From positions 62,001 through 126,000 of the forward strand of contig JALHQN010000012.1 of assembly GCA_022841915.1 (NCBI GenBank): a stretch of DNA of 64,000 bases, given 5' to 3'. The notes below the pieces were generated by a model, which worked only from the letters and a program-made list of their open reading frames with translations, was not told where the DNA came from and ran no database searches. This document shows positions 5,640-39,399 of this stretch, in pieces (the stretch's first letter is position 1; each line of letters starts with the position of its first letter). This DNA is from Burkholderiales bacterium (GTDB lineage: Bacteria > Pseudomonadota > Gammaproteobacteria > Burkholderiales > WYBJ01). A program made the translations under genes and the position numbers.

Positions 5640-6464
5640 ATGACCATCGACATCCACGCCGTTACCGAGTGTATCGAAGAGGCGACGCGAACCCTCGTTC
5701 TACCTCGCTTCTCGCGACTATCGGCCGGTGACTTGGAGATCAAGCAGACACACGGCGATACCGACGATATCGTAACCATCGTGGATCGCGAGGTCGAAGC
5801 ATGTCTGTCGACGGCCTTGAGCGCACTTGAACCGACCGCACTCGTGATCGGTGAAGAAATAGCTCATCGTCGTCCCGAATTGCTGGGATTGCTCGCCGAC
5901 GATCGGCCGCTCTGGATCATCGATCCCATCGACGGCACGAAGAACTTTGCCGCAGGCGACAGCGCATTCGGCGTAATGGTGGCCTATGCGCTACGAGGAC
6001 AAACTCAAGCCGCTTGGATCGTGCTCCCGACCCGGCGCCAGACGTTCGTGGCGGAAGCCGGCGGCGGCGCCTTCGTCAATGGAGAACGGATTCGGGTCCC
6101 TCCGGTTCGCAACGATAGCCTGCTGCGCGGCGCGGTGCTCGCCCGCTATATGCCAGGAGACCTTGGCGAGCAAGTCAGGACGGCGCTGAGCCCTCATATC
6201 AAGAACAAGCCTCCCTCGGGTTGCGCCGCCATCGAGTACACCGACATTCTGCAAGGGCATCGGGACTTCGTCGTCTACTACCGGCTCCTGCCGTGGGACC
6301 ACGCGGCACCGGCGCTGATTCTGACCGAGGCCGGCGGGCTTGCACGCCACATGAGCGGACAAGCGTATACGCTGCGCTCCGAGAACCAAGTGACCATCGT
6401 CGCACGTGATGCAGCCACCGCCGATCAACTACGCGCATGGATTCGGCTTGGAACACCATCGTGA
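5640..6464 (+). CDS. Inositol monophosphatase family phosphatase (SuhB/CysQ/HisN type)
   Basis: The 274-residue protein carries the family metal-site signatures: GEE at 71-73, DPIDGT at 95-100 and WD at 219-220 (LPWDHAAP). These residues hold the Mg2+ ions that hydrolyse phosphate monoesters such as inositol-1-phosphate, PAP, or histidinol phosphate. The sequence does not show which substrate is used. SuhB- and CysQ-type genes normally sit in other contexts, so I leave it unnamed. It starts 33 bases after the serine hydrolase. Downstream are about 310 bases without a gene. Confidence 0.88.
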   Translation: MTIDIHAVTECIEEATRTLVLPRFSRLSAGDLEIKQTHGDTDDIVTIVDREVEACLSTALSALEPTALVIGEEIAHRRPELLGLLADDRPLWIIDPIDGTKNFAAGDSAFGVMVAYALRGQTQAAWIVLPTRRQTFVAEAGGGAFVNGERIRVPPVRNDSLLRGAVLARYMPGDLGEQVRTALSPHIKNKPPSGCAAIEYTDILQGHRDFVVYYRLLPWDHAAPALILTEAGGLARHMSGQAYTLRSENQVTIVARDAATADQLRAWIRLGTPS

Positions 6465-20359: not shown

Positions 20360-22399
20360 TCACCACAAGGGCAGCCGGCCGCTCAACCGGGCCGCCCATT
20401 CCATCTTATCGAACCGGGCCGCACGCCCGCCCAAACACTGCGCGAGAAAGGTCTCCGTGCGACGCAGAATCGTCAGATGATGCGCCCAATACCCGGTGGA
20501 GTGCCCCATATCCGCCAGCTCTCGATACTCGACCGCCTTGCCCTGCTCGACCAAACGCGCCACCATTGATCGCGACTGTTCCGGCGGCACGCGCACGTCC
20601 GTCGCGCCTTGAAAAACGAGCACGGGCCGCTCGAACCGATGCGCGAGATTGATCGGCGAGATCTTCTCCATGCGCGCTTTGTCTGCGGGTACCGCAGGAT
20701 CGCCGACGTAGCTATACCAGTACATGAGTTCCAGCTCCCAATACGGCGGGAAGGTTTCGATCAGTCGAGGCAAATCCGCCGGCCCCGCCACGGATACCCC
20801 ACAGGCGAACGCGGTCGGGTGCTGCGCCATGGCCATCAGCGTGGCGTAGCCGCCGTAGCTGTGGCCCATGATCGCCACCTTGGAAGGATCGGCGACACCG
20901 GCATCGATCGCCCATTGCAGCCCATCCATCAAATCGTCCTGCATCGCAGCCCCGAACTGCCCGACAGCCGCGGTCATGAACTTGCGCCCATAACCGGTGG
21001 ATCCACGAAAGTTGATCAGCAGGACCGCATAGCCGCGGTTTGCCAGAAACTGTGCTCGGAGCAGATCCTCGCTATGGTCCGCGTCGCCCCAACTCACCCG
21101 GCTCCACGGACCGCCATGAACGAGCAGAATGAGCGGCAAACGCCGGCTGCTCGACGCACCCGCAGGTCGCACGAGGTAAGCCGGGATACGCAATCCGTCT
21201 CTAGCCGTGAATTCGACGGCCTCGGGCACGGCCATAGAGGCCTGAAAACCGGCCGATCGGCTTTCCCCGAGCAGAACGTGGCTACCTTTGCCACGATCGA
21301 CGAGGTAGAAGCGCCGATTGGCATGCGTGAACACCACGGCAACCAGACGCTGCTCGTCGGGAGCCATCGTTTCGATCGTGAATCCGATCTGCATGCCTTC
21401 GTACGCATCCAGCAAAGGCCGCAGCTGGGCGGCAAGCTGCTCGTCGAACACCTGGGTGCGCGGATAGTCCGGATTCGAAACCGCCAGCAAGGGCCTGCCC
21501 TGCACCGCACTCATCAGTACGCGCGCCACATCGGCCTTGGGGTCTTCATGCACGACCGTGGCAGCCCCGCCCCGCGTCGCATCCAGATGGAACAGCGCTA
21601 CACGGTCTCGACCCCGATTGCTGAGAACCCATGCGTGGGCTTTGTCATGCGAAAGGCCCAGGGGCTGGGTGACTTCCTGGCTGACGCGCGCCAATGCGGA
21701 GCGCTCGCGCAAGTCGGGCGGCAATGATTTCCCGCGGGCGCGCTGCGGCAAGGCCGACTTGCGCCAGCCGAGAAACTGGCCATTGGCATCGGTGACGGGC
21801 GCGATGCCGTCGCCGGGGTTCAAGGCAACGACCTCTTCGGCCCCGGTGTTCAGATTGATGCGGTACAAGTCGCGCACGGTGTGGCTGCGTCGATTGTGCA
21901 TCACGAGCACGTGCTCGGGATCGGACTTCACGATCTGATGCAGCCAGACGCGAACGCCTTCGAACGGCGTCAGATCCACCAAGGTCGCATCAGGATCTTC
22001 GATGTCGAGGCGGTAGAGCCGGTGATTCTCCGCACCTGTCTTGTCGTCGAGTATGAGCAAGCGACGGCTGTCGGCAGACCAATGCCGACCGCTTCCGCCG
22101 ACCCGGTAGACGTGGGTCTTGCCGTCGACTTCCGAGCGCACATGCAAGGCTGACCGCCATCCCGATGGCCCTTGCCACGCGAGGCGCGTGCCATCGGGCG
22201 AGAACGAGAAACCACTGTACTGCGTGTTCGTGAAGACAAACTCGTGCGCCGGAACAAGCGAAGAAAGACTGACCTCTCCCAGCGCGGGATGCTCTGCTGG
22301 CCGATCGCAGGCCGACAGCCCCCAGGTCAGTAGACCCGCTGCTGCTACGACTCGAAGTCGCCTAGGCAGCGAGTCGGGAAATCTGCGCAAAAAGCGCAT
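20360..22399 (-). CDS. S9 family (prolyl oligopeptidase/acylaminoacyl) peptidase, lipoprotein
   Basis: About 679 residues from ATG 22399 (an ATG at 22435 adds 12). The N-terminus is a lipoprotein signal with lipobox LSAC near residue 23, so the protein is probably membrane-anchored in the periplasm. The middle is the beta-propeller region (residues ~40-400). The C-terminal alpha/beta-hydrolase domain has Ser in GHSYGGYATLM, Asp in GATDVRVPPEQ and His in DMGHSTGYW, the S9 triad. It should cleave short peptides. The start lies inside the end of the Ldh2 gene, so both are probably co-transcribed. Confidence 0.92.
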   Translation of the reverse strand: MRFLRRFPDSLPRRLRVVAAAGLLTWGLSACDRPAEHPALGEVSLSSLVPAHEFVFTNTQYSGFSFSPDGTRLAWQGPSGWRSALHVRSEVDGKTHVYRVGGSGRHWSADSRRLLILDDKTGAENHRLYRLDIEDPDATLVDLTPFEGVRVWLHQIVKSDPEHVLVMHNRRSHTVRDLYRINLNTGAEEVVALNPGDGIAPVTDANGQFLGWRKSALPQRARGKSLPPDLRERSALARVSQEVTQPLGLSHDKAHAWVLSNRGRDRVALFHLDATRGGAATVVHEDPKADVARVLMSAVQGRPLLAVSNPDYPRTQVFDEQLAAQLRPLLDAYEGMQIGFTIETMAPDEQRLVAVVFTHANRRFYLVDRGKGSHVLLGESRSAGFQASMAVPEAVEFTARDGLRIPAYLVRPAGASSSRRLPLILLVHGGPWSRVSWGDADHSEDLLRAQFLANRGYAVLLINFRGSTGYGRKFMTAAVGQFGAAMQDDLMDGLQWAIDAGVADPSKVAIMGHSYGGYATLMAMAQHPTAFACGVSVAGPADLPRLIETFPPYWELELMYWYSYVGDPAVPADKARMEKISPINLAHRFERPVLVFQGATDVRVPPEQSRSMVARLVEQGKAVEYRELADMGHSTGYWAHHLTILRRTETFLAQCLGGRAARFDKMEWAARLSGRLPLW

Positions 22400-23360
22400 C
22401 CGGGATGTCGATTCCCTCGGTGGAGGCTCGTGCACTGGCCGACTCGCGACGCGAGCCCGGCAGCCGCACGCCTTCGTCAGCCAGCATGGCCATGATCAAG
22501 GTCTCGATCCGCTCGAGGTAGGTACGCTTGCCTGCCAGGGCCTCGGGATCGATCGCAAGCATGGCATGCCCGATGTTGGGATGATTGCCTGGCTCGAAGT
22601 AGGAGTCGTTCTCGAAACCGAATGCTGCGCCGGTTAACGCACAACAAAGCAACTCCACCATCAAGGCAAGCATCGCCCCTTTGGCACCGCCTATCGCAGC
22701 CAAGCTGCCCGTCAGCGCCGTCTTGGCATCCGTCGTCGGCTTGCCGTCGCGATCGACAGCCCAGCCTGGAGGCAAGGGCTTGCCCTGTTCGGCGTACAGC
22801 ATGATCTTGCCGCGCGCCACCTCGGTCAGCGACAGATCGATGATCAGGGGCGAACCCTGATCGCGCGGGAAGCACGCTGCGATGGGATTGGTTCCGAAGA
22901 GCGGCTTCTTGCCGCCCCATGCGTTGATCGCCGCCGGGGAGTTGGTGAAGCCCATGGCCACCAGTCCCGCCTGGGCCAGCGGCAGCAGATGATAGCCCAT
23001 GGCACCGGCATGATGGCTGTTGAACACGCCCGCCATCGCTATGCCATGCGACTTGGCGCGAGCAATCGCTTCGGTGCCCGCAAGGGTCATCGCCTCGTAG
23101 GCAAGGCCGCCCTGCGCATCGATCAGACAGCACCCTCCCTTGCTGCGGGACACGACAGGCCGGGCCTGTCCGTTCGCGCGCCCCTCGCGCAAGTGCGTGC
23201 AATAGAGCGCAAGCCGACTCAGTCCGTGGCTCGCCAGGCCGCTTGCATCAGCATCCACCAATGCCAGCGCCGTGGCGGCAGCCATCGCATCGCATGCGCC
23301 TGCGTTGGATAGCGCGCGCGTCGTCAGCAGGTTTAATTCTTGCAGCGTGATCGATGGCAA
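22362..23360 (-). CDS. Ldh2/MdhB-family NAD(P)-dependent 2-hydroxyacid or ketimine reductase
   Basis: A 332-residue member of the malate/L-lactate/ureidoglycolate dehydrogenase family, whose NAD-binding fold is unrelated to Rossmann enzymes. Family marks are ASGLASHGLSRL near residue 40, the catalytic His region VFNSHHAGAMGYH (116/117), FTNSPAAINAWGG, and GTNPIAACFPR. Members oxidise malate, lactate or sulfolactate, or reduce cyclic imines such as delta1-piperideine-2-carboxylate. The sequence does not decide among these. It runs into the S9 peptidase gene with a short overlap, suggesting linked expression. Confidence 0.88.
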   Translation of the reverse strand: MPSITLQELNLLTTRALSNAGACDAMAAATALALVDADASGLASHGLSRLALYCTHLREGRANGQARPVVSRSKGGCCLIDAQGGLAYEAMTLAGTEAIARAKSHGIAMAGVFNSHHAGAMGYHLLPLAQAGLVAMGFTNSPAAINAWGGKKPLFGTNPIAACFPRDQGSPLIIDLSLTEVARGKIMLYAEQGKPLPPGWAVDRDGKPTTDAKTALTGSLAAIGGAKGAMLALMVELLCCALTGAAFGFENDSYFEPGNHPNIGHAMLAIDPEALAGKRTYLERIETLIMAMLADEGVRLPGSRRESASARASTEGIDIPDALFAQISRLAA

Positions 23361-28305: not shown

Positions 28306-28544
28306 CAGGGCTTTTTGTCGTCTTGTTCAGCGTGATTGGCTGTGCGTGCGAGTTCGGGAACTCGCCGAGGCCGCATCCTGCCCATGGATGGTCAGCGCGT
28401 CATCTGTGTCTAGTCGTACGTATATTTGCGTATTCCTCTCGATATACTCCTCACATTGCGAATTTGCCGGCACCTCTCGCACCGCTACAGATGGAGCCTA
28501 ATCCGGCATACTCGCCCTCTCGATTTCCACTTGCGGAGTGCCCG

Positions 28545-30272
28545 ATGTCCGACCCCAAGCGTGGTATGCGCCGTGCCCTGACCAGCTACGGTGACGAAGC
28601 CTTCTCTCTTTTCCTGCGCAAGGCCTTCATCAAGGCGATGGGCTATACGGACGACGCGCTCGACCGACCGGTGATCGGCATCACCAATACCTTCAGCGGA
28701 TACAACGCCTGCCACCGCAACGTTCCCGAACTGATCGAAGCCGTCAAACGCGGGGTCATGCTGGCAGGCGGGCTGCCGATCGAGTTTCCGACGATCTCTC
28801 TGCACGAGTCGTTCTCTCATCCCACGAGCATGTACTTGCGCAATCTCATGTCCATCGATGTGGAAGAGATGATCCGCGCGCAGCCGATGGACGCGGTCGT
28901 CCTGATCGGCGGATGCGATAAAACAGTGCCTGCGCTGCTCATGGGCGCGGCAAGCGCCAACACCCCGGCGATCGTGCTCGTCACCGGCCCGATGATCACA
29001 GGCTCCCACCGCGGCGAGCGCCTCGGGGCGTGCACCGACTGCCGCCGGTTCTGGGGAAAGTACCGCGCCGGTGAACTCGACGAGCGAGAGATCACGGAGA
29101 TCAATGGCGCCCTCGCGCCGTCGGCGGGCACCTGCATGGTGATGGGTACCGCGAGTACCATGGCCTGCATGACCGAAGCCCTGGGCATGATGCTCCCCGG
29201 TGGGGCCGCCGCGCCGGCGGTTCACGCCGATCGGCTGCGGGCGGCTGAAGCGACGGGCGCACGCGCCGTCGGGCTCGCCAAGGACAGGCTCACCCCCGAG
29301 CAGATCATGACGCCCCGCGCCTTCGAGAACGCACTGCGCATGCTGCTCGCCATAGGCGGCTCGACGAATGCCATCGTCCATATCGCGGCCGTGGCAGGGC
29401 GCCTTGGCATCGAGGTCGATCTCGAAGCGTTCGATCGTCTCGGTCGAGACACGCCCGTGCTGGTCGACCTCAAACCCACCGGCCAGCACTACATGGAAGA
29501 CTTGTTCAAGGCGGGCGGCGTCACGACCATCCTGCGCGAAATCCGCCCTTTGCTCAATGAAGATTGCCTCACGGTCAACGGGCGCACGCTGGGCGAGAAC
29601 ATCGATGCGGCCCCGGCTCCCTTCCCCCAGGACGTCGTGCGGCCCTTTGCCGATCCGATTTTCCGTGAAGGCGGAATCGCCGTTCTGCGCGGCAACATCG
29701 CCCCCAATGGCGCCATCATCAAGCAGTCGGCGGCCAATCCAACCTTGCTGCAACATACCGGACGTGCCGTCGTCTTCGCTTCGCTCGAGGATCTGGCCGA
29801 GCGCATCGACAGCGACGATCTCGATGTCGCTGCCGACGACGTGCTGGTGCTGCAGAGCGCCGGACCGAAGGGTGCTCCGGGCATGCCTGAGTCGGGCTAC
29901 CTGCCGATTCCCCGCAAACTGGCGCGCCAGGGCGTGAAGGACATGGTGCGTATCTCGGATGCACGCATGAGTGGCACGGCGTTCGGGACCATCGTGCTGC
30001 ACGTATCGCCCGAATCAGCGATGGGCGGCCCCCTTGCCCTAATCCGGAACGGCGATCTCATCAAGCTCGACACCGAGGCGCGTCGGATCGATCTGCTCAT
30101 CGACGAAAAGGAATTGGAGGCAAGGCGGCTGGCGTGGCAGCCTCCGCCCCCGCGCGCGGAAGACGATCGCGGCTATCGCAAGCTGTTTCTGGAGTCTGTC
30201 GAGCAGGCTGAACGCGGGTGCGACTTCGACTTTCTCAAGCCACCCGCCACGACCCGCACGCCCACACGCTGA
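28545..30272 (+). CDS. IlvD/Edd family dehydratase (sugar-acid or dihydroxy-acid dehydratase)
   Basis: Start at ATG 28545 after GGAG, giving 575 residues. Iron-sulfur ligands are C56 (YNACHRNV), C124 (GGCDKTVPAL) and C197 (GTCMVMGTAST). DGGCDKT-like and ACTDCRRFWGKYRAGEL stretches resemble the arabinonate/xylonate dehydratase branch more than IlvD of branched-chain amino acid synthesis. These enzymes remove water from 2,3-dihydroxy acids to give 2-keto acids. It runs towards the minus-strand operon ending at 30354 and is separated by a hairpin, so shared function is possible but not shown. Confidence 0.88.
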   Translation: MSDPKRGMRRALTSYGDEAFSLFLRKAFIKAMGYTDDALDRPVIGITNTFSGYNACHRNVPELIEAVKRGVMLAGGLPIEFPTISLHESFSHPTSMYLRNLMSIDVEEMIRAQPMDAVVLIGGCDKTVPALLMGAASANTPAIVLVTGPMITGSHRGERLGACTDCRRFWGKYRAGELDEREITEINGALAPSAGTCMVMGTASTMACMTEALGMMLPGGAAAPAVHADRLRAAEATGARAVGLAKDRLTPEQIMTPRAFENALRMLLAIGGSTNAIVHIAAVAGRLGIEVDLEAFDRLGRDTPVLVDLKPTGQHYMEDLFKAGGVTTILREIRPLLNEDCLTVNGRTLGENIDAAPAPFPQDVVRPFADPIFREGGIAVLRGNIAPNGAIIKQSAANPTLLQHTGRAVVFASLEDLAERIDSDDLDVAADDVLVLQSAGPKGAPGMPESGYLPIPRKLARQGVKDMVRISDARMSGTAFGTIVLHVSPESAMGGPLALIRNGDLIKLDTEARRIDLLIDEKELEARRLAWQPPPPRAEDDRGYRKLFLESVEQAERGCDFDFLKPPATTRTPTR

Positions 30273-30353: not shown

Positions 30354-32078
30354 TCAGGCAGCGGCCTGATCCTTGATCAGACTCTCGCCGGGTTTGACGC
30401 GCGTGAACTCCACCGGCCGTGTGGCGATGTCGAAGACCCCATTCACCAGTTTCACGCAGGTGTAGGCCGACGTATGAAGATCCCCCGCCTGGGGGAAATC
30501 CGCTCGGAAATGCGCACCGCGAGAATCCTCGCGAGCCTGGGAAGCTGCCCGAATCGACTTGCTGACCAGGATCAGATTCTTCAGATTCATCCAGTCGTGC
30601 CATGTCAGATTGAAGGCGAGCGTGCCGCCGGACACGCCGGTCTCGTCGAGCCGCGCCTCCAACTCGTCCAGACTTCCCGAGGCGCGACGCAGCCCCTCGC
30701 TGTCCCGCACGATGCCGACGTCATCCCACATGAGCTGGAACAGCCGATCCCGGATCTCCTCCAGATTGCCGGGCTTCTGCTTCAGCGGTCGACTCGCCTG
30801 TGCAATCGCCTCATCGATCGCCCCCTGGTCCGGCGCGATGAATTCACCGTAGGAGGCAATCCAGCCCGGCATGCGATCGCCGGCAATGCCGCCGTAGACG
30901 GTCGAATTGGCGACACCGTTGCCGCCCAGGCGATTGGCGCCGTGCACACCGCCGGTGTCTTCACCGGCGGCGAACAGCCCCGGCAACTCCGTCGTGCAGT
31001 CGGTATTGAAGACCACGCCGCCCATCATGTAGTGCGCTGTCGGCACTACCTCCACCAGACCACCGGCCAGATCGAACCCGCAATCGGCGCACCGCTCGAC
31101 CATGCCCTTGAACATGCGGCGCACGTTGTCCGCGCCCAGATGCCCCATGGAGATGTACACGCCACCGTTGGCCGTGGTGTTTCCCAGACGCATCTCTTCG
31201 TAGATGGCGCGCGAGACGATATCCCGAGTCGCCCGCTCGGCACGCGAATCGTACTTGTGCATGAAACGCTCTTTGCCGCCCGTGAGCAGCTGACCGCCCG
31301 CGCCGCGCAAGCCCTCTTCCAGTACCGTGCCCGTCATGCGCGTGTGAGGCCCCGCAAGCAGCCCGGTGGGATGAAACTGCACCATTTCCATGTCGCGCAG
31401 CGTCAGCCCGGCCCGCAGGGCCATAGCCATGCCGTCGCAAGTCTTGTCGCCCGAAGGCGTGTGATACTTGTACATTGTCGGACCGCCGCCGGTCGCCAGC
31501 AGCACCGCTTTCGCCTGCACGAACAGAAAACCGCCCGTGCGCACGTCGATCATCAGGACCCCGGCGATCCGGCTGCCATCCTTGGACCGAATCAGTTCGA
31601 TGGCGCGATGCTCCTCCAGCCGACGAATCTTGCGCGCCCACACCTGCTCGGCGAGCCGGTTGATGATCTCGATGCCCGTGAGGTCGCCCTTGTGCACGGT
31701 CCGGTCGAAGGTCTGTCCGGCGAACGCCTTCTGGTGCACCGTCCCATCGGGGTTGCGATCGAAGAAACAACCCAGTTCGTTCTCCAGTTCGTGGATGCGC
31801 TCGACGGCGACTTCCACCAGTTGCCATGCGAGCTCTTGCTGCGGCAACCACTTGCCACCCTCGATGGTGTCCATGAAATGGCGTTCGACCGAATCTTCCT
31901 TGGCCAGAGCGACGTTGTACCCGCCTTGCACCATGCGCGTGCAGCCGCACTTGCCCAGCAGCCCTTTGACCGCCACGGTGATGTCCAGCGATGGGTTGGC
32001 CTTGTGCGCATGCAATGCGCCGAACAGGCCCGCCCCTCCAGAGCCGAGAATCAGGATGTCCGTCTTGATTGTCTGCAT
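30354..32078 (-). CDS. sdhA: Succinate dehydrogenase/fumarate reductase-like flavoprotein, paralogue with altered FAD site
   Basis: 574 residues from ATG 32078. FAD motif ILGSGGAGLFGALHA at 10-24. Substrate-site elements of the SdhA/FrdA family are present: QFHPTG, LEEGLRGAGG, ERATRDIVSRA, HGANRLGGNGVA. In standard SdhA/FrdA the His that binds FAD covalently lies five residues before Q in H-T-V-A-A-Q/E-G-G. Here the stretch is C46-T-R-M-V-Q51-G-G, so Cys replaces it, as expected for non-covalent FAD (compare Ser in NadB). The gene ends a long series containing a matching FeS subunit and membrane anchors, and its start is 2 bases past the fumarase beta stop. Likely the catalytic subunit for a fumarate/succinate-like substrate. 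Housekeeping SDH is less likely. Confidence 0.85.
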   Translation of the reverse strand: MQTIKTDILILGSGGAGLFGALHAHKANPSLDITVAVKGLLGKCGCTRMVQGGYNVALAKEDSVERHFMDTIEGGKWLPQQELAWQLVEVAVERIHELENELGCFFDRNPDGTVHQKAFAGQTFDRTVHKGDLTGIEIINRLAEQVWARKIRRLEEHRAIELIRSKDGSRIAGVLMIDVRTGGFLFVQAKAVLLATGGGPTMYKYHTPSGDKTCDGMAMALRAGLTLRDMEMVQFHPTGLLAGPHTRMTGTVLEEGLRGAGGQLLTGGKERFMHKYDSRAERATRDIVSRAIYEEMRLGNTTANGGVYISMGHLGADNVRRMFKGMVERCADCGFDLAGGLVEVVPTAHYMMGGVVFNTDCTTELPGLFAAGEDTGGVHGANRLGGNGVANSTVYGGIAGDRMPGWIASYGEFIAPDQGAIDEAIAQASRPLKQKPGNLEEIRDRLFQLMWDDVGIVRDSEGLRRASGSLDELEARLDETGVSGGTLAFNLTWHDWMNLKNLILVSKSIRAASQAREDSRGAHFRADFPQAGDLHTSAYTCVKLVNGVFDIATRPVEFTRVKPGESLIKDQAAA

Positions 32079-32080
32079 GA

Positions 32081-32695
32081 CTATTTGCCGCCCACGCCGA
32101 TGGCTGCGAGCACCTGCTCGCGTCGTGATCTCGCCTTCTCCGTGACCTTGGTATAGAGATTGCCACCGTGACTGTCCATGGCGACGAGCAGCGGTCCGAA
32201 TCCTCGGATGCGAAACTTCCACAACGACTCGGGGTTCAGATCGTCGAGATCGACATCTTCGATGGACTCGATCCAGGTGGTTTCGAGTGCGGCCGCGCCG
32301 CCTATGATTGCGAGATATGCGCCCCCGAGCGCGGTAAACGCCTCTTGCGATGCGGCGAACAGCCCGCCTTTGCCGATGACGATGCGCACACCGTACTGCT
32401 CCATCAAAGGTCGAGTGAAGCGCTCCATGCGGGCGCTGGTCGTCGTTCCGACGCACACCGGCGCGTAGCCGGTCGGTGCACCTTGCGTCTCGCCGACCCA
32501 TTTGACATTGGGAGCAGTATGGATGACCGCATGCCCGCGAAGATCGAACTTGGTCTTGCGGCCTCGATCGAACATGTGAATCTGGGTTGCGTCTCGGATA
32601 CCGAACAAGGTGCCGTTCAACGTGACAGTGTCGTTCACCCGCAGCGCACGTACTTGCGCTTCGGTAATCGGCATGTCGAACTCGTAGTGGGCCAT
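32081..32695 (-). CDS. Class I fumarate hydratase / L(+)-tartrate dehydratase, beta subunit
   Basis: 204 residues from ATG 32695 (MAHYEFDMPITEAQVRALRV). It matches the C-terminal swivelling domain of class I fumarases and TtdB: VNDTVTLNGTLFGIRDA, TAPNVKWVGETQGAP, TTTSARMERF, VIGKGGL, GGAAAL and FGPLLVAMDSHGGNLY. It pairs with the alpha subunit encoded two genes upstream, together forming a [4Fe-4S] hydro-lyase for fumarate, tartrate or mesaconate-like substrates. A separate CHI-fold gene lies between the two subunit genes, which is unusual. Spacing to the flavoprotein start is 2 bases. Confidence 0.92.
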   Translation of the reverse strand: MAHYEFDMPITEAQVRALRVNDTVTLNGTLFGIRDATQIHMFDRGRKTKFDLRGHAVIHTAPNVKWVGETQGAPTGYAPVCVGTTTSARMERFTRPLMEQYGVRIVIGKGGLFAASQEAFTALGGAYLAIIGGAAALETTWIESIEDVDLDDLNPESLWKFRIRGFGPLLVAMDSHGGNLYTKVTEKARSRREQVLAAIGVGGK

Positions 32696-32738
32696 GTTTA
32701 CTCGCCTCGCGCCAACACGCGCAATGTCGTTCGAAAAT

Positions 32739-33377
32739 TCATTGCACCCTCGCCCCTGCGCTCCCTTGCCGGAGCAAGGCCCGTCTGAGAGCCGGATCGA
32801 GAGCATCCTTACCTAGCCAGACCTGCAGCAAGGCATGAAACAAATCCGCGCCACGAATCGCCGGGCCGTGCGCTCGCCCGTCGAGCAGGATCTGCGTCCC
32901 GCTTCCGGGCACGTAATCCAATTGGAGGGTCGTTCCCTTGCGTAGCGTACCGAGCCGACGCAACGCCGCGACAAACGCTTCGAGCGGCGCTTTGAGGGAT
33001 TCGCGTTCCGAATCGGTCAGATTGTCGGCGATGGTCTCGGACATCGTCTCGGCCAGATTGGCCGCGTGAGTATCCCGCAAAAACGTCAAGGCAATGCGCT
33101 TGCGGGCTTTGTCGATCAGGAGGGTGTCCAGACTCGAGTGCCGGGATGCAAGGTAGAGCGCCACCACATAGCGATCGAATGACGCTTCACGTCGTACGCC
33201 GGCGCCATTGAGCGAGAGTTCTGCCCCGCCCGCCACGATAAGGTCGGGCAACGACACATCGCGCGTCTGCGTCTGCGCCAACGCTTGGAAGGCGGCGGCG
33301 AACAGCCCGCACAATGCAAACAACATCATCGCCGGTGCACCGGCGGCGCAGCGCGCAGATGCCAGGCGAGCGATCAT
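32739..33377 (-). CDS. Exported chalcone-isomerase-fold protein
   Basis: 212 residues from ATG 33377, one base past the stop of the fumarase alpha gene. An N-terminal signal peptide (hydrophobic MMLFALCGLFAAAFQALAQ) ends near residue 35. The rest follows the bacterial CHI-like (Chalcone_3) pattern: LSLNGAGVRREASFDRYVVA, LYLASRH, KRIALTFLRDTHAANLAE, FVAALRRLGTLRKGTTLQLD and LFHALLQVWLGKDALD. Bacterial members have no demonstrated chalcone isomerase activity and are thought to bind fatty acids or similar ligands. Its position between two subunits of one enzyme is odd, and I cannot give its job in the pathway. Confidence 0.82.
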   Translation of the reverse strand: MIARLASARCAAGAPAMMLFALCGLFAAAFQALAQTQTRDVSLPDLIVAGGAELSLNGAGVRREASFDRYVVALYLASRHSSLDTLLIDKARKRIALTFLRDTHAANLAETMSETIADNLTDSERESLKAPLEAFVAALRRLGTLRKGTTLQLDYVPGSGTQILLDGRAHGPAIRGADLFHALLQVWLGKDALDPALRRALLRQGSAGARVQ

Positions 33378-33378
33378 C

Positions 33379-34254
33379 CTAGAACCCGTAGGCGACACCG
33401 GCGGGCGTGAACGTCGCCTTTGCGCGGCGCGCGGAGTGGCACTGCATATTCACCGCAACCGGGTTCATCGTAATGTGGGTGGCTGCCGTCTCGACGTGTA
33501 CGGCGAACGCCGTGGAATCACCGCCCAGACCCTGTGCGCCGACTCCCAGATCGTTCACCACGGCGGACAGTTCCCGCTCGAGCTTGGCGCCCTCAGGATC
33601 CTCGCAGGCCGATCCCAGCGGACGCGTCGCGGCAACCTTGGACAGATGCACGCAGAGATCGGCCGTGCCTCCCACCCCAACGCCCACGATGGTCGGCGGA
33701 CATGTCTTGCCGCCCGCATCGAGCACGCAATCGATGACGAAGGTCTTGACGGCATCGATGCCGTCGGCAGGGATCGCCATCTTCAAAAAGGAATTGTTCT
33801 CCGAGCCGCTGCCCTTGGGAATCATCTCGATGCTGAGGACTTCCCGGTCGGGAGAAAAATCGATATTGATGACCGGCACCGAGCGTCCGCAGGACGTGTG
33901 CTCGTTGATGCGGGTCACCGGATGAACCACCGAAGAGCGCAACGGATGCTCCTTGGTCGCCCGCGCGCACCCGCGCCCGATCGCTTGCTTGAGTTGATAC
34001 CCGTCGACCTCGATGTTCGCCCCGATCACGACGTTGTAGATCGGTATGCCGGTGTCCTGGCACAGCAGGTTGTCGTTGGCCTCGGCAACCGTGATGTTGC
34101 GGATCATCGTGCCGAGTACCGACTTGCCCGTCGCATCGGTTTCCGCTGCATCCAGGCGTTGAAATCCCGTCTTGATATCCGGAGGCAGCAGTTTCAGCGC
34201 GCGAATATAGAGGTCCTTGGCTGCCTCTTCGACTTGGTTCAAATCAATCTTCAT
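33379..34254 (-). CDS. Class I fumarate hydratase / L(+)-tartrate dehydratase, alpha subunit
   Basis: 291 residues, the N-terminal catalytic part of a split class I fumarase (TtdA-like). The expected [4Fe-4S] cysteines lie in LLCQDTGIPIYNV, SACEDPEGAK and MQCHSARRAKA. Other family sequence includes INEHTSCGRSVPVI, PKGSGSENNSF, GGKTCPPTIVGVGVGGT and QGLGGDSTAFAVHV. Substrate choice between fumarate, tartrate and methylated analogues cannot be fixed by eye. The gene lies between the Bug receptor and the CHI-fold gene in the same operon and presumably forms an enzyme with the 32081-32695 product. Confidence 0.92.
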   Translation of the reverse strand: MKIDLNQVEEAAKDLYIRALKLLPPDIKTGFQRLDAAETDATGKSVLGTMIRNITVAEANDNLLCQDTGIPIYNVVIGANIEVDGYQLKQAIGRGCARATKEHPLRSSVVHPVTRINEHTSCGRSVPVINIDFSPDREVLSIEMIPKGSGSENNSFLKMAIPADGIDAVKTFVIDCVLDAGGKTCPPTIVGVGVGGTADLCVHLSKVAATRPLGSACEDPEGAKLERELSAVVNDLGVGAQGLGGDSTAFAVHVETAATHITMNPVAVNMQCHSARRAKATFTPAGVAYGF

Positions 34255-34308
34255 GCCGCATTCCTGAATGGAGGTTCGTTGGCGCTCGGGTCGCTCGACC
34301 GGGGCGCA

Positions 34309-35274
34309 TCAATCGACGTAGAGTTTTCGCTCCCGAATGATTCGGGCCCAATGGGCGGATTCATCCTTGATGGCGCGCGCGAATTGCTCGGGACTATTAC
34401 CCACCGCGGCCATCCCAAGCTGCTCGAAACGACCGCGCACATCGGCCGACTGCAGGACTTTGACCGAATCTTGATGAATCTTGGCGACCACGGAGGGCGG
34501 CGTCCCCGCAGGCACCATGAATCCGAACCAGCCCAAATTCTCGAATCCGGGCAATGATTCCGCAACCGCGGGCACGTTCGGCAACTGCTTCGAGCGCTCC
34601 TTGCTCGTTACGGCAAGGGCGCGCAATTTGCCGGCCTGCACGAAGCCGATCGCTGCCGACAGGTTCGGCGTCACCAACTGGATTTGCCCGCCCACCAGAT
34701 CGGTCAGTGCGGGGCCCTCACCTTTGTAGGGGACATGCGTCACGTCGATGCCGGCCGCGGTGACGAAGTTTTCCGCGGCAAGATGCGTTTGCGTACCGAC
34801 GCCTGCCGAACCGAAATTGATCGACTTCGGCTTGGCCCGCGCAAGCGCGATGAACTCTTTCAGGGTGTTGCCGGAGAAGGCGGGATTCACCACGAGCACC
34901 TGCGGACCGCTGGCCACGTTCGTCACCGCGAGCAGGTCGCGCGCCGGGTTGAAGGCCATCTTGCGATACATGTGCGGATTGGCGGTCACGATCGAGCCAG
35001 AGGTCATGAGTATCGTATGGCCGTCGGCCACCGCCTTGGCGACGATGTCGCCGCCAATGTTGCCGCCGGCACCTGCCCGGTTGTCGACCACGACGCTTTG
35101 CCCCCAGGCCTCGGTCAACCGGGTAGCGACGATACGCGTCACGATGTCCGTCGCGCCGCCCGGGGCGAACGGGACAACGATTCGCACCGGTCTCGACGGG
35201 TAAGCCTGCGAGTAGGCCGGAACAGTTGCACAGGCCGAAGCGGCCACCAGGATTGCAGTCCACACTCGCATCAT
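34309..35274 (-). CDS. Bug/TctC-family periplasmic solute receptor
   Basis: 321 residues. A signal peptide ends near YSQA (residue 24). The mature protein starts YPSRPVRIVVPFAPGGATD, the classic Bug N-terminus, and continues with VVDNRAGAGGNIGGD, FNPARDLLAVTNVA, VPYKGEGPALTDLVGGQIQL. Bug proteins bind small carboxylates and feed TctAB permeases or signalling routes. No tctA/tctB genes are nearby, so it may use permeases encoded elsewhere. It is embedded in the operon between the membrane anchors and the fumarase alpha gene, which suggests that its ligand is the pathway substrate. Confidence 0.93.
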   Translation of the reverse strand: MMRVWTAILVAASACATVPAYSQAYPSRPVRIVVPFAPGGATDIVTRIVATRLTEAWGQSVVVDNRAGAGGNIGGDIVAKAVADGHTILMTSGSIVTANPHMYRKMAFNPARDLLAVTNVASGPQVLVVNPAFSGNTLKEFIALARAKPKSINFGSAGVGTQTHLAAENFVTAAGIDVTHVPYKGEGPALTDLVGGQIQLVTPNLSAAIGFVQAGKLRALAVTSKERSKQLPNVPAVAESLPGFENLGWFGFMVPAGTPPSVVAKIHQDSVKVLQSADVRGRFEQLGMAAVGNSPEQFARAIKDESAHWARIIRERKLYVD

Positions 35275-35417
35275 TGGGTATCGACCTCTCGGTTCATCCG
35301 AATGCCTACAGTCCGCTCACCTTAGCCCAAGGCCTCAGGGGCGGCAACAACGCAACCGGCCCTTTTGCAGAGCTAGGGCAAGACCGCTGCGACTCCTCCG
35401 GCCTGGAAAACGCAACG

Positions 35418-35765
35418 TCAGGTCAGATTCAACAGAAAGGCGAGCCCGACCGCAAGCGTCAACCCGGCCGCAACCGCCAGAAGACTCTTCTGCCAATCGC
35501 GCCAGGGCATGAATTCGAGCATCAACAGGCGGATGCCGCCCGTCATATGGGCGGCGAGCAGCAGCACGAGAATGACTTCGCCGAGCTTGACGATGGGTTG
35601 ATCGATCCAGCGCAGAGTCGCTTCGAGCCGAGCTTCGCCCTGCAGCGCGGTTGCCAGCGTGAGAAAGTGCAAAGGCAGGAACAGCGTGAGGAGCACGCCG
35701 GACACCCTATGAACCAGGAAAGCCCACCACGCCGGATGATTGCGCGAACGCCAATCGTTTTTCAT
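35418..35765 (-). CDS. sdhC: SDH-like membrane anchor, cytochrome b subunit (SdhC signature)
   Basis: 115 residues, three membrane helices. It carries the SdhC signature FLVHRVSGVLLTLFLPLHF with candidate haem/quinone-site residues, and AAHMTGGIRLLMLEF in the second helix. ATG 35765 overlaps the stop of the preceding anchor gene by three bases (ATGA junction), so translation is coupled. It should hold the catalytic subunits to the membrane and pass electrons to quinone. Genes order B-C/D-A with five genes' distance to A differs from the usual compact sdhCDAB. Confidence 0.87.
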   Translation of the reverse strand: MKNDWRSRNHPAWWAFLVHRVSGVLLTLFLPLHFLTLATALQGEARLEATLRWIDQPIVKLGEVILVLLLAAHMTGGIRLLMLEFMPWRDWQKSLLAVAAGLTLAVGLAFLLNLT

Positions 35766-36100
35766 GCAATCACCGCCCACACGGCCCGCAAGCCGAGCAC
35801 TGCGATCAGCAAGGCAACCGCAGCCACGGTGATGTTGAGCAGCCCGCCACGCCAGCCGAACGTCTCGGCGAGTATCGCCCGCAGGCCCACCGGTGCATGA
35901 ATCGCCACGGCGAGCACGAACACGGTATAGAAAGCGGCCCAGACGGCACTGCCTTGGGTGCGGCCGAGAATCTCCGCGGCACTCAATCCGCCGCGCACCG
36001 CGTAGATCAGTGTAATGAGATGAACCACGACGCACAGAGCAAGCACCATCGCGCTCAAGCGCTGGGCCGCCCAGAGATAAACCTGCGATCGCGTGCTCAT
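35762..36100 (-). CDS. sdhD: SDH-like membrane anchor, second subunit
   Basis: 112 residues, three hydrophobic helices. AQRLSAMVLALCVVVHLITL and VAIHAPVGLRAIL place histidines where SdhD/FrdD-type anchors bind haem b. It begins 16 bases after the stop of the iron-sulfur gene and couples to the next anchor gene. Assignment as partner of the 35418-35765 product rests on size, hydrophobicity, His positions and context. Overall identity with known SdhD cannot be judged here. Confidence 0.8.
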   Translation of the reverse strand: MSTRSQVYLWAAQRLSAMVLALCVVVHLITLIYAVRGGLSAAEILGRTQGSAVWAAFYTVFVLAVAIHAPVGLRAILAETFGWRGGLLNITVAAVALLIAVLGLRAVWAVIA

Positions 36101-36116
36101 CGACGGTCGCCTTCGC

Positions 36117-36830
36117 TCACAGTTTGCCCTTGAGCGCGGCCTTCAATGCGGCCCGTTTCAAGCCGGCGATGGCTGCGGTCGGCGAAATCTGCTTGGGACA
36201 GCGTTCGGTGCACGTCATGTGCGTATGGCAGGCATGACAACCGGCGTCGCCGGCAACCGCAGCGAGGCGCTCTTCGTTGGCGCCGTCGCGGACATCGTTG
36301 AGCAGGGTCCACGCGCGATTCATGGCCGCAGGGCCCAGATACTCCGGGTTCCAGCTCACCACATCGCACGAGGAATAACAGACGCCGCAACCGATGCATT
36401 CGATGCCCGCGTCGACCTGCTGGCGCTCCGGGCTTTCGGGCTCGACACGCGCGAAGTCGTCCTTGCGGGTCGTCGTCGGATGGAATTGTCCCTGCGCGGC
36501 GGCCCACTTATCGAAGAAATCACGCATGTCGGTCACCAGATCCTTGATGACCGGCAGATTCTTCAAGGGCGCGATCTCGAGACTGTCGCCATCGGTGACG
36601 TCAGCGACGTGCGTGCGGCAAGTCCAGCGTGCGCGTCCGTTCACCACCATCGCGCATGAACCGCACATGCCCACGCGACAGGCGAATCGATAGGAGAGCG
36701 TGGGATCGAGATGACGCTGGATGTGCGTCACAACGTCCAGGACGGTTTGGCTTTCCAGTCGCGGAACTTCGAAGCGCTGGAACTCGCCCTCCTCGCCGCC
36801 CCGCCAGACCTTGACTTCCAGGGTGCTCAT
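36117..36830 (-). CDS. sdhB: Succinate dehydrogenase/fumarate reductase-like iron-sulfur subunit
   Basis: 237 residues. The N-terminal ferredoxin domain has C51, C56, C59 and C71 (FACRVGMCGSCAM, WTCRTH) for the [2Fe-2S] cluster. The C-terminal domain has CIGCGVCYSSC and CHACHTHMTCTERCPK for the [4Fe-4S] and [3Fe-4S] clusters. It carries electrons from the flavoprotein to the membrane anchors. It opens the SDH-like part of the operon, 103 bases after the large UxaA/SuyB-type subunit. An internal promoter in that gap is possible. Confidence 0.93.
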   Translation of the reverse strand: MSTLEVKVWRGGEEGEFQRFEVPRLESQTVLDVVTHIQRHLDPTLSYRFACRVGMCGSCAMVVNGRARWTCRTHVADVTDGDSLEIAPLKNLPVIKDLVTDMRDFFDKWAAAQGQFHPTTTRKDDFARVEPESPERQQVDAGIECIGCGVCYSSCDVVSWNPEYLGPAAMNRAWTLLNDVRDGANEERLAAVAGDAGCHACHTHMTCTERCPKQISPTAAIAGLKRAALKAALKGKL

Positions 36831-36933
36831 TGCAGCGCTCGGGGTATCGCGTATACGCGTGGAACGAATCGAACCGAACTACGACACGTCGCCCGCCCGA
36901 CGCTAGCGACAGCATCGGGCAGACAGGCGGAGT

Positions 36934-38103
36934 TTACGCGCTCTCGTACAAACGGGTCAGCACGAACTCGCGGTGTCCCAAAGCCTCCGCAGCGGTCAAG
37001 CGACCGTTACAGGTGCGCAGCATGACTTCGAGCAGCTCATCGCCGCACTGATCCATGTTCTTCTGCCGCTGCAACAACCCGGAGACGTCGAGGTCGATGT
37101 GCTCGCTCATCGTGCGGCATGTGCGCGGATTGGCGGAGAGCTTGATCACGGGAACGATCGGGTTGCCGATGACGTTGCCTTGCCCGGTCGGGAAAAAATG
37201 GACCACGTACCCTGATGCACCGCACAGCGTGACCATTTCGGCCGCGGCAGACGAGGAGTCCATGAACCAGAGGCCCGGACCGGTCGGATCTTCGGCTTTG
37301 TCCAGCACGCCGACGACCTTGCACTTGTGGCCGATTTTCTGGATGTTGCCCAGCGCCTTCTCTTCGATGGTCGTCAAGCCACCGGCGATGTTGCCCTTGG
37401 TCGGCTGCGACTCGGAGAGATCGCTCGTCTTGTTCTTGTCGATGACTTCCTGATAGCGGTCGAACATCTTCATGAACTGCTCGCGCACCTGGGGCGTCGC
37501 GCAACGATCCGCCACGATCAGTTCACCGCCCGTGAGTTCGGTCGTCTCGCCGAAGCACATCGTCACGCCCAGCGGCTCCAGCTTGTCGAAAGCATTGCCG
37601 ACCGTCGGATTCGAGCCGCAACCCGAGGTGGTGTCGGACTCGCCGCACTTGGTGGACACCCAAAGTTCGTTGATCGGGCATTCTTCGCGACGCAGTTCCG
37701 AGGCCCACTGCACGTACTCCTTGGCCACTTTGGAAGCACGCATGATGGTGTCGTGATCGCCATGCAGTTCGATACCGAAACCGACTACGGGCTTGCCCGT
37801 CTTGGCAATGCCCTCGACGACGCGCTGTGTCCAGCCGTCTTCGATGCCGATCACCACTACCGCAGCCACGTTGGGGTTGGCGCCCGTACCGATAAGCGTA
37901 CGGAAGTGCAAATCCAAGTCTGCACCGAACTGCAGCCGCCCGTAGGGGTGGGGAATGGCAAGGGTGCCCTTGATGTTGTGTCCAACAGCTTCGCAGGCGG
38001 CGTTCGACAAGTCGTCGACGGGCAGAATGATGACGTGGTTGCGCACACCCACGCGCCCGTTTTCGCGCCGGTATCCCCAGAAAGTGCTCTTGCTCGAGAT
38101 CAT
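36934..38103 (-). CDS. UxaA/GarD-superfamily lyase, large subunit (SuyB-like)
   Basis: 389 residues. It begins [20 protein letters not shown] and contains [57 protein letters not shown] and [16 protein letters not shown]. This is the C-terminal catalytic part of the altronate/galactarate dehydratase family, here as a separate protein. The split form with a ~10 kDa partner is the arrangement of (2R)-3-sulfolactate sulfo-lyase SuyAB, and also of other uncharacterised UxaA proteins. Iron-dependent removal of water or sulfite from a 2-hydroxyacid is expected, and the leaving group is not decided by sequence. First enzyme pair of the operon. Confidence 0.85.
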
Positions 38104-38181
38104 GCTATGCCTCGCTTGATGATTTTCACGCCGAGACGACGACGCCCCGGTCCTGGCTCGGATTCGCTCCTCTCGAGCGGT

Positions 38182-38463
38182 CTACCAGCGCTTGGTTTTG
38201 AGATTGTGGACGTGGCAATGCTCACCGACGCGGATTTCAGCGACGGCCTTGCCGATGTCATGACCGTACTTGATCACGGTGTCGCCTGACTTGATCGCTT
38301 GCGTGGCCACTTTGTGGCCGATCGGGACGTCGTTCAGGGCCTTGACGTGAATCGTGGAATCACCTTCCATGACCCAGCCGACGAGCTCCTGGCCCGCTTT
38401 GACACCTTCCACGACGATCACACCGACAGTGTCTTTCTTGTCGTGTACGAGAAAATGAATCAT
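38182..38463 (-). CDS. UxaA/GarD-superfamily lyase, small SAF-domain subunit (SuyA-like)
   Basis: Start at ATG 38463 with GAAGGAG in front, giving 93 residues. An in-frame ATG at 38517 is rejected because its extension is Arg-rich and unlike the family. The protein is one SAF domain: HDKKDTVGVIVVEGVKAGQE, LNDVPIGHKVATQAIKSGD, YGHDIGKAVAEIRVGEHCHV, ending HNLKTKRW. SAF domains form the N-terminus of one-chain UxaA/GarD, while SuyA of sulfolactate sulfo-lyase is a free protein of similar size. It is first in the operon, facing the GntR-type regulator. Confidence 0.85.
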   Translation of the reverse strand: MIHFLVHDKKDTVGVIVVEGVKAGQELVGWVMEGDSTIHVKALNDVPIGHKVATQAIKSGDTVIKYGHDIGKAVAEIRVGEHCHVHNLKTKRW

Positions 38464-38571
38464 CTCTGCTCCTTCGATGCTCGTGCGGCGACGAATCCGG
38501 CCTTGCCGACAGCCCAAGACGCCGCGTTATGGTCTGAAACGGATGCCCGATGGTAGCTAGCGGGTTTTGCC

Positions 38572-38585
38572 AAGTCAACTAGATG
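38572..38585. promoter_or_regulatory. Palindrome, candidate operator of the GntR-type regulator
   Basis: GTCAACTAGATGAC reads GTCA-n-CTAG-n-TGAC, symmetrical except for the two n positions. It lies in the 177-base divergent gap, 56 bases before the regulator start and 109 bases before the small lyase subunit start. Palindromes in such gaps are often bound by the adjacent GntR protein. Position and symmetry are the only evidence. Confidence 0.35.
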
Positions 38586-38640
38586 ACCTATATGAGCAAG
38601 ACCCCATGCTACTATTGCAGTGCAACGAGAAAGCAGGCCC

Positions 38641-39399
38641 ATGACCCTAGCAATCGAAGCCGGTCTTTCGGCCGGCGTGCCCACCGGACACCCTTTGTAC
38701 AAAGAGGTCAAGCAGCGCATCACGCGCGGCTTGATGGACGGAGATTGGCGACCTGGGGAGGCCATCCCCAGCGAAGCGAAGCTCGCCGAGCGCTTCCAAG
38801 TGTCCGTCGGCACCGTGCGCAAGGCCATCGACGAACTGGTTGCCGAGAAGATCCTGCTGCGACAGCAGGGGCGCGGGACCTTCGTCGCCACCCACACGCT
38901 CGATCGTACGCTGTTCTACTTTTTTCATTTGGTCGGCAAAGACGGGCGCAAGGAAACACCCGGCACCGAGATGCTGACCTTCGCCCATGGCCGTGCGGAC
39001 GCACAGGAAGCCACCCAGCTCGGACTCAGTCGTGGCGAGCGCGTCTACCGGATACGCAATCTGTTGAGCCTGTCGGACGAGCCGGTCGTGATCGACGACA
39101 TCGTCATCCCGGCGCAACTGTTTCCCGACCTGAGCCCGGCCGTCTTCGGCACCCGTACCGGAACGATCTACGGCCTGTACCAGGCTCGCTACGGCATCAA
39201 CGTGATTCGAATCGCGGAGCGCTTGAGCGCCACGCTGGCCGACGATTCCGTCGGCCAGCTTCTCGGTGTGCAAGCGGGAACGCCGCTGCTTTCCATCGCC
39301 CGCCTCGCCTATACCTACAACGATCAGCCCGTCGAATTGCGTCACAGCCTGGTCGACACGACGCAGCATGAGTATCTGAGCGACTTGGTGAAAAGCTGA
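38641..39399 (+). CDS. GntR-family transcriptional regulator with UTRA domain (HutC subfamily)
   Basis: 252 residues from ATG 38641 (an upstream GTG at 38620 is possible). The winged helix-turn-helix covers residues ~18-88 (PLYKEVKQRITRGLMDGDW, EAIPSEAKLAERFQVSVGTV, QQGRGTFVATH). The C-terminal UTRA domain (~110-245) binds a small molecule (RGERVYRIRNLLSLSDEPVV, YGINVIRIAERLSA, GTPLLSIARLAYTYNDQPVE). It is divergent from the lyase/SDH-like operon and most probably represses it until substrate or an intermediate binds. Confidence 0.92.
   Translation: MTLAIEAGLSAGVPTGHPLYKEVKQRITRGLMDGDWRPGEAIPSEAKLAERFQVSVGTVRKAIDELVAEKILLRQQGRGTFVATHTLDRTLFYFFHLVGKDGRKETPGTEMLTFAHGRADAQEATQLGLSRGERVYRIRNLLSLSDEPVVIDDIVIPAQLFPDLSPAVFGTRTGTIYGLYQARYGINVIRIAERLSATLADDSVGQLLGVQAGTPLLSIARLAYTYNDQPVELRHSLVDTTQHEYLSDLVKS

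Follow-up and report, generated by a model that had tools for sequence, protein, structure and literature searches.

The 64,000-nucleotide window analysed here (Burkholderiales bacterium, GenBank assembly GCA_022841915.1, contig JALHQN010000012.1, positions 62,001 to 126,000) carries on its minus strand an operon in the order suyA-suyB-sdhB-sdhD-sdhC-Bug-fumA-CHI-fumB-sdhA, with spacings of -20 to +143 nt between genes and a GntR/UTRA gene diverging on the plus strand; we read it as a probable route for the breakdown of 3-sulfopropionate. The host genome comprises 6.2 Mb in 66 contigs, the operon lying on contig C12. Beside the GntR/UTRA-type regulator gene (38620..39399, plus strand), which matches PhnF/HutC-type models, all under cut-off, the spacer before suyA holds a putative operator, GTCAACTAGATGAC (38574..38587). 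On the minus strand follow suyA, the putative small SAF-type subunit of sulfolactate sulfo-lyase (38182..38463); suyB, the putative large subunit of (2R)-3-sulfolactate sulfo-lyase (36934..38103); an sdhB-like iron-sulfur subunit (36117..36830); an sdhD-like membrane anchor (35762..36100; PF01127); an sdhC-like cytochrome b556 anchor (35418..35765; TIGR02970 above cut-off); a Bug/TctC periplasmic solute receptor, probably for substrate capture (34309..35274; PF03401); a class I fumarase-like alpha subunit of what we call type 1, a proposed sulfoacrylate hydratase (33379..34254); a Chalcone_3 (CHI-fold) exported protein (32739..33398); the type-1 beta subunit (32081..32695); and the flavoprotein SdhAx, a proposed 3-sulfopropionate dehydrogenase subunit (30354..32078). 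Pfam and NCBIfam families agree with the gene names: GD_AH for the large lyase subunit, a dhsB-type FeS subunit, two Sdh_cyt anchors, a TctC/Bug receptor, Fumerase alpha and beta, Chalcone_3, FAD_binding_2 with Succ_DH_flav_C, and a GntR/UTRA-type regulator. All genes, their order and their families are as named in an earlier interpretation of this DNA made from its letters alone (the sequence-only reading).

The lyase was placed by profile scores, phylogeny and cysteine pattern. Its small subunit has no Pfam match and a weak galactarate-dehydratase match (32 bits); the large subunit belongs to the Pfam galactarate/altronate dehydratase family, yet reaches 150 bits against the 731-bit cut-off for galactarate dehydratase. 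The window SuyB is 81.5% identical to that of Cupriavidus pinatubonensis HN-2, whose gene adjoins hpsN, hpsO and a third gene placed where hpsP would be expected. A tree built from 37 hand-picked rows (28 of 81 orthologues and nine others) groups the window protein with this hpsN/hpsO-linked one in a 31-row SuyB clade with support of 100/100; outside lie garD, the altronate enzyme, the fused UxaA of the host genome and a Salmonella UxaA split into two subunits, some of these branches being long. Four alignment columns hold cysteine in all three fused dehydratases; three of these columns lack it in 33/33 SuyB-type rows and one keeps it. PMC6336799 describes SuyAB as lacking four cysteines common to UxaA/GarD dehydratases, which may correspond to our four columns, and as the sole heteromeric member of its superfamily. 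The window lyase likewise has separate small and large subunits, although Salmonella has a two-subunit UxaA too, in a sugar context, so that split subunits alone are not decisive for SuyAB. Score, tree position and cysteine pattern argue against UxaA/GarD membership. Among ten annotated recurrent neighbour clusters there were no uronate or aldarate genes, no search having been aimed at them.

SdhAx is 33–34% identical to the canonical SdhA of its own genome, which holds a canonical succinate dehydrogenase (SDH) too. Its scores lie under cut-off with the curated models sdhA_frdA_Gneg (413 of 567 bits) and TfrA (499 of 718 bits). A plasmid search with SdhAx gave 482 records, the best 30 of which divide into 18 at 47–70% identity and 12 at 33–36%; genomic contexts were fetched for 13 of those 18, two of the 13 being without annotation. 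SdhAx belongs to a separate SDH-like family. An alignment of 89 SdhAx rows (82 distinct) showed that residues matching H242, E255, R286, H354 and R399 of E. coli SdhA are kept in 89/89 rows, that the T254 equivalent is Glu in 89/89, and that a five- or six-residue insertion follows HPTG, with one position being Arg (85 rows) or Lys (4 rows); the roles of these residues, and of H45, we take to be those in E. coli SdhA. Of the outcomes that the sequence-only reading had named as refuting it, two were checked, namely that the flavoprotein was the only SDH of the genome and that the lyase fell among altronate or galactarate dehydratases; neither was found, as another SDH flavoprotein is present and the lyase lies in the SuyB clade.

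The window FumA and FumB, aligned with E. coli TtdA/TtdB and FumA, keep the CQDTG, CPP, TTSxRM and GKGG motifs and the cluster cysteines; CQDTG, TTSxRM and GKGG presumably have their usual fumarase roles. When the alpha subunit was searched against plasmids, four of the best 30 of 197 rows stood at 47–67% identity and the others at 40% or less. Some relatives carry a second type of fumAB, whose FumA2 (three rows aligned) has CGDTG or CADTG where type 1, TtdA and FumA have CQDTG. In 44 SdhAx neighbourhoods, 34 have type 1 and ten have type 2. In an SdhAx tree of 30 hand-picked rows, the type-2 rows take two positions, and well-supported branches force at least two changes of type.

A contig scan gave at least 80 related loci with SuyB identities of 82–92%. 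Fifty of the 80 listed have at least 8 kb downstream of SuyB, and in 33 of these SdhB, SdhA, FumA and FumB are all present at 60% identity or more, with some present in four and none in 13. We also searched genomes with an alignment of 15 SdhAx members, counting matches at E ≤ 1e-150. SdhAx was detected in 11/398 genomes drawn by phylum and in 39/300 drawn from the order (own genome included), the latter spread over 19/134 genera. SuyB occurs in 51/300 order-draw genomes, comprising 38/39 with SdhAx (all but G935) and 13/261 without (Fisher 8e-36, kinship uncorrected). The co-occurrence search that the sequence-only reading had proposed shows a recurring gene set, complete in those 33 loci.

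Neighbourhoods were then compared for 44 of 48 SdhAx genomes (the window's own was set apart, and G748, G835 and G1018 are cut at contig ends), with 16 stretches from the same contigs as controls. The markers counted were SuyB, ComC, SlcC, TauE, SorA, YeiH, HpsN and SsuA at an identity threshold of 40%, or 33% for ComC, SorA and TauE. Both fumA and fumB lie within the stretch in 44/44 neighbourhoods, about 6 kb from sdhA in L174. SuyB was present in 23/34 type-1 neighbourhoods, 0/10 type-2 and 0/16 controls, and a ComC-like gene in 27/34, 0/10 and 0/16, respectively. At least one sulfolactate, sulfite or sulfonate marker was found in 33/34 type-1 and 6/10 type-2 neighbourhoods (39/44 in total), against 0/16 controls. 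Recurrent extra clusters in the listed SuyB loci include Ldh_2 proteins with L-sulfolactate dehydrogenase as top model, under cut-off (34 loci), a thiamine diphosphate (ThDP) enzyme (30) and a sulfatase (23); rarer ones, in 3–6 loci each, are an SsuA/TauB/permease-type ABC carrier, a 2-hydroxyacid dehydrogenase, a histidinol-dehydrogenase-like protein, TauE and a TRAP receptor.

These relatives also bear on the substrate of the lyase. In the tree, SuyBs linked to the SDH/fumarase module (L062, L078, L079, L081) are scattered among SuyBs without it, which gives no sign of a separate substrate for SDH-linked SuyB. The SuyBs of L058, L061, L067, L069 and L074 are 82–85% identical to that of the window, and these loci carry an HpsN homologue at 78–81% identity and no SDH/fumarase module in the sequence available. 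Homologues of hpsN and hpsO lie near the type-1 module in L142, L146 and L173 (genomes G866, G901 and G730), with one SuyB orthologue per genome, which points to sulfolactate as the shared node. Because a single SuyB serves where module and hpsN/hpsO coexist, and close SuyBs accompany hpsN-like genes, the substrate should be 3-sulfolactate. The window SuyAB thus likely acts on sulfolactate rather than sulfomalate, and would cleave (R)-3-sulfolactate to pyruvate and sulfite.

Among named relatives, Methylobacterium radiotolerans and M. oryzae combine sdhBDC-fumAB-sdhA with a ThDP enzyme, TauE, a UxaA-type pair, a symporter, SlcC-like and ComC-like genes and GntR; the M. radiotolerans SuyB is 69% identical to that of the window, and M. 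oryzae additionally has a molybdopterin oxidoreductase and a putative sulfate exporter. M. nodulans, Pseudomonas sp. MPC6, Pseudorhizobium banfieldiae and two members each of Sulfitobacter and Paracoccus have type-2 modules, which adjoin genes for TauE, YeiH, TTT or sulfite dehydrogenase to a varying extent. Next after the set in P. versutus come genes with the annotations Ldh family, hydroxyacid dehydrogenase, TTT, GntR, alcohol dehydrogenase, SDR and hisD, which, read from family and order, would be ComC-, SlcC- and HpsPON-like. The haloarchaea Natribaculum luteum and Haloarcula sp. GH36 carry a UxaA-type pair, tauE, an ArgH-like gene, sdhA and sdhB. Their UxaA-type pair is 33% identical to the window SuyB and lies outside UxaA/GarD in the lyase tree; no fumAB is annotated in the stretch read of either, the ArgH-like gene standing instead.

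The spacer dyad, GTCA-N6-TGAC, was not part of the sequence-only reading. A divergent GntR homologue is present in 56 of 78 related loci with a readable suyA upstream stretch, and the dyad occurs in 49/56 of these spacers (50/57 including the window), against a shuffle mean of 0.13. It was found in 2/22 suyA upstream stretches without a GntR match, and in 0/80 stretches upstream of SuyB, 0/49 of SdhB, 0/39 of FumA and 0/36 of SdhA. Chance readily supplies one match in 64 kb (68/100 shuffles), so the weight of the dyad lies in its recurrence in relatives, part of which common descent explains. An extended operator pattern has one zero-mismatch site in the genome, and looser matches are no commoner than those of the reversed pattern; a wider GntR regulon was accordingly rejected. 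The simplest reading is one local regulator serving one operon.

Taken together, these data suggest that the operon probably directs the GntR-controlled breakdown of 3-sulfopropionate, an isoster of succinate with one carboxylate as sulfonate; that it serves a sulfonate pathway of some kind we consider highly likely. The Bug receptor would capture the 3-sulfopropionate anion, the operon itself holding no membrane part of the carrier. SdhAx with SdhB and the two anchors would oxidise 3-sulfopropionate to 3-sulfoacrylate and pass the electrons to quinone, the class I fumarase-like FumAB would hydrate 3-sulfoacrylate to (R)-3-sulfolactate, and SuyAB would eliminate sulfite to leave pyruvate. The sulfite would afterwards be oxidised or exported by genes outside the operon. 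Water addition in the sense that gives (S)-malate gives (R)-3-sulfolactate, since sulfur alters the naming priority. Fumarase geometry would thus yield the enantiomer used by SuyAB, which points to 3-sulfopropionate as the starting acid. This scheme builds on what was observed directly, namely gene content, conservation, family placement, the recurrent spacer dyad and the relatives' genomic link to sulfolactate and sulfite genes, and from these we infer every substrate, direction and product in it. The sequence-only reading had proposed SDH-like oxidation, fumarase-like hydration and SuyAB-like elimination, and these steps do fit together, with sulfite as the likely leaving group. Its sulfonate idea was right in kind, whereas its particular route, from sulfosuccinate through sulfomalate to oxaloacetate, is less supported: if sulfolactate is the SuyAB substrate, as is likely, the sulfonate replaces one carboxylate and is not an extra substituent on succinate.

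The swapping of hydratase types among relatives suggests a second exit, to malonate semialdehyde. A SuyB orthologue is missing from 6/10 type-2 genomes and located elsewhere in the genome in 4/10. At 3/18 type-2 modules, a homologue of CoA-acylating methylmalonate-semialdehyde dehydrogenase adjoins the module or lies one gene away (L100:12409-13899, L101:4693-6210, L172:4826-6433; 60–64% identical to each other). We infer that type-2 fumarase may hydrate the sulfonate-bearing carbon, the resulting bisulfite adduct then releasing sulfite and malonate semialdehyde without a sulfo-lyase. PMC12421959 reports that Paracoccus grown on sulfofucose induces, in addition to SuyAB, a fumarate/tartrate cluster with a TauE homologue, which is possibly a set of type 2. 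The haloarchaeal ArgH-like genes (L108:7200-8702, L109:7278-8780) score 323 bits with ArgH (cut-off 279.5), and 257 and 260 bits with XcbC, which forms sulfoacrylic acid (PMC8727900), under its cut-off of 575; they may be ordinary argininosuccinate lyases. A bolder proposal, to which we give somewhat less than even credence, is that SdhAx proteins form a widespread family of 3-sulfopropionate:quinone oxidoreductases, with an unusual Gly-Cys flavin site, whose product is handled by three interchangeable sulfoacrylate hydratases, namely type-1 fumarase with SuyAB, an ArgH/XcbC-like enzyme with a SuyAB-like pair in haloarchaea, and type-2 fumarase alone. Separately, L099 holds a methylmalonate-semialdehyde dehydrogenase fragment at 5892-6272, and an Amidohydrolase-2 family gene lies directly 3' of type-2 fumAB in L099, L101, L143, L164 and L172.

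Several genes surround or interrupt the module. About 7 kb past the operon, and likewise absent from the sequence-only reading, lies a gene for a ComC-like Ldh_2 dehydrogenase of the sulfolactate dehydrogenase type (22362..23360, minus strand). Its top model is L-sulfolactate dehydrogenase (199.8 bits, under the cut-off of 500), and it is 51% identical to the Ldh_2 gene that follows suyAB in L085, an open reading frame over-long at its N-terminus; in the same comparison, five of nine other own-genome Ldh_2 genes reached at most 38%. The gene may be linked to the operon. The CHI gene looks accessory: its homologue (38–40% identity) occurs only in L017 and L081, 2/80 listed loci, many of them incomplete, and on this count it was set aside as a pathway enzyme. 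An IlvD/Edd-type dehydratase gene (28299-30272) adjoins the operon convergently. The same-genus loci L136, L139 and L147 (86–87%; L147 and L006 are apparently one contig) and M. oryzae L110 (61%) have homologues close to the module, and none was found there in the other loci scanned. This gene was left out of the pathway on the grounds of its orientation and distribution, and is possibly an extra operon-linked member. The ThDP enzyme, acetolactate synthase/2-hydroxyacyl-CoA lyase-like and under all cut-offs (e.g. L041:4764-6416, L087:7362-8987), lies near the module in 15/34 type-1 and 3/10 type-2 neighbourhoods and is absent from the window operon. In 8/34 type-1 neighbourhoods, an arylsulfatase/choline-sulfatase-like gene (e.g. 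L044:11297-13081) stands between sdhB/anchors and Bug, which hints at a sulfate-ester precursor. Two loci titled Chitinophaga pinensis (L007) and planctomycete (L063) encode SuyBs 90% and 83% identical to a Burkholderiales protein and are possibly naming or binning errors of metagenome-assembled genomes.

Some observations weigh against the proposed 3-sulfopropionate route. H45, the flavin-binding His of E. coli SdhA, is replaced by Gly plus an inserted Cys in 89/89 SdhAx rows. E. coli FrdA without the covalent flavin bond loses succinate oxidation and keeps fumarate reduction, so the oxidative direction of SdhAx is not assured; its FAD is possibly non-covalent or cysteinyl. The change of Thr254 to Glu would bring an extra negative charge near the substrate. 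The 13/50 SuyB loci with enough flank and no module show that SuyB alone does not imply the module, which fits SuyAB as a shared end step. No sulfonate marker was found in 5/44 neighbourhoods (L152 of type 1; L164, L169, L170 and L174 of type 2), and in Sulfitobacter S190 the stretch read shows the module accompanied by a TTT carrier alone. The window operon holds no sulfite exporter or sulfite dehydrogenase, and the own-genome homologues are remote (SorA-like about 29–35%, TauE-like at most 39%).

Among the alternatives, conversion of sulfosuccinate by the same three enzymes, through sulfofumarate and 3-sulfomalate to oxaloacetate and sulfite, survives best, though we consider it unlikely. 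Its chemistry and its sulfite and sulfonate links are identical, a dicarboxylate suits the SDH- and fumarase-like sites, and Bug receptors often bind di- and tricarboxylates. The window SuyB, however, is as noted close to the hpsN/hpsO-linked protein (81.5%) and to the HpsN-accompanied ones (82–85%), with no sign of a new substrate; ComC- and SlcC-like neighbours point to sulfolactate, and the malonate-semialdehyde type dehydrogenase near 3/18 type-2 modules fits a C3 product, not oxaloacetate. The literature matches listed held nothing relevant on sulfosuccinate genes.

Distinctly less probable is the module in reverse, in which sulfolactate would be dehydrated to sulfoacrylate and SdhAx would reduce this to 3-sulfopropionate as an electron sink, much like fumarate respiration. 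The missing covalent-flavin His agrees with such a role, as does the top NCBIfam model of SdhAx, the fumarate reductase TfrA (under cut-off). Against it, the SorA-, TauE- and YeiH-type sulfite genes that lie close to many modules, and the presence of SuyAB in the operon itself, point to degradation, the anchors are of the succinate-dehydrogenase type, and the Methylobacterium and Paracoccus lineages are mostly aerobic. A non-sulfonate dicarboxylate route with a UxaA-type dehydratase is very improbable: the fumarase subunits also match L-tartrate dehydratase models and the IlvD/Edd gene lies next door, with its few homologues elsewhere, but the lyase falls in the SuyB clade, the recurrent neighbours that were annotated are genes for sulfonates and sulfite, and the remaining scanned loci show no IlvD/Edd by the module. 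The mesaconate (methylsuccinate), tartrate and sugar-acid options that the sequence-only reading had kept open found no support. Equally slight is the chance of a back-up SDH and fumarase of the tricarboxylic acid cycle sharing a regulator with suyAB by accident, for although the SDH catalytic residues are kept and PMC12421959 saw its co-induced cluster as possibly Krebs-linked, the genome already has a canonical SDH, Thr254 is Glu with an insertion in all SdhAx rows, and SuyB accompanies 38/39 SdhAx genomes.

The proposed 3-sulfopropionate route would meet a gap in the literature. Enterococcus gilvus makes 3-sulfopropionate (PMC11489063), which arises from sulfoquinovose or 2,3-dihydroxypropanesulfonate (DHPS) via E. 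gilvus and, by gene content, some other gut bacteria, and also from homotaurine (PMC11489063, PMC9594981). According to a 2024 paper (PMC11489063), its bacterial degradation is unreported save for one thesis, which for homotaurine in Roseovarius nubinhibens describes 3-sulfopropionate passing to sulfoacrylate and sulfolactate; the paper adds that 3-sulfopropionate is respired by Bilophila wadsworthia, through an unknown pathway. Other papers call the degradation route in need of investigation (PMC9594981) or unclear (PMC12890257), and we found no published genes for it in the open-licence PubMed Central literature. The operon supplies concrete candidate genes, with a flavoprotein family present in 39/300 genomes of the order. 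If the proposal is true, a gap in the organic sulfur cycle is filled, a respiratory complex and a fumarase have been re-used on sulfonate isosters of Krebs-cycle acids, and genes annotated as spare SDH or fumarase can be re-read as sulfur-cycle genes.

Among the closest known systems, XcbC of bacterial coenzyme M synthesis forms sulfoacrylic acid and resembles the haloarchaeal ArgH-like gene that replaces fumAB; it differs in being a biosynthetic enzyme of phosphate elimination, and the haloarchaeal proteins score higher with ArgH. To our knowledge, the known sulfolactate route of R. nubinhibens does not use SuyAB. The thesis route in that organism shares the intermediates proposed here, although the passage citing it names no genes (PMC11489063). 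The window FumAB shares the CQDTG, CPP, TTSxRM and GKGG motifs with class I fumarase and TtdAB, but forms a distinct subfamily that stands beside SdhAx in the type-1 loci read. As in complex II (SdhABCD), there are four subunits, two anchors and the same catalytic His, Arg and Glu equivalents; unlike complex II, the window enzyme has Gly-Cys for the flavin His, Glu for Thr254 and an insertion after HPTG, and is a second copy in its genome. The lyase resembles SuyAB of Paracoccus pantotrophus and Cupriavidus pinatubonensis in its two subunits, SuyB-clade position, missing dehydratase cysteines and the sulfolactate and sulfite neighbours of its relatives. In the window its partner is an SDH- and fumarase-like module, where known systems have hpsNOP, slcC/comC or cysteate genes; in the proposed pathway that module is a new addition upstream of the known end reaction by SuyAB.

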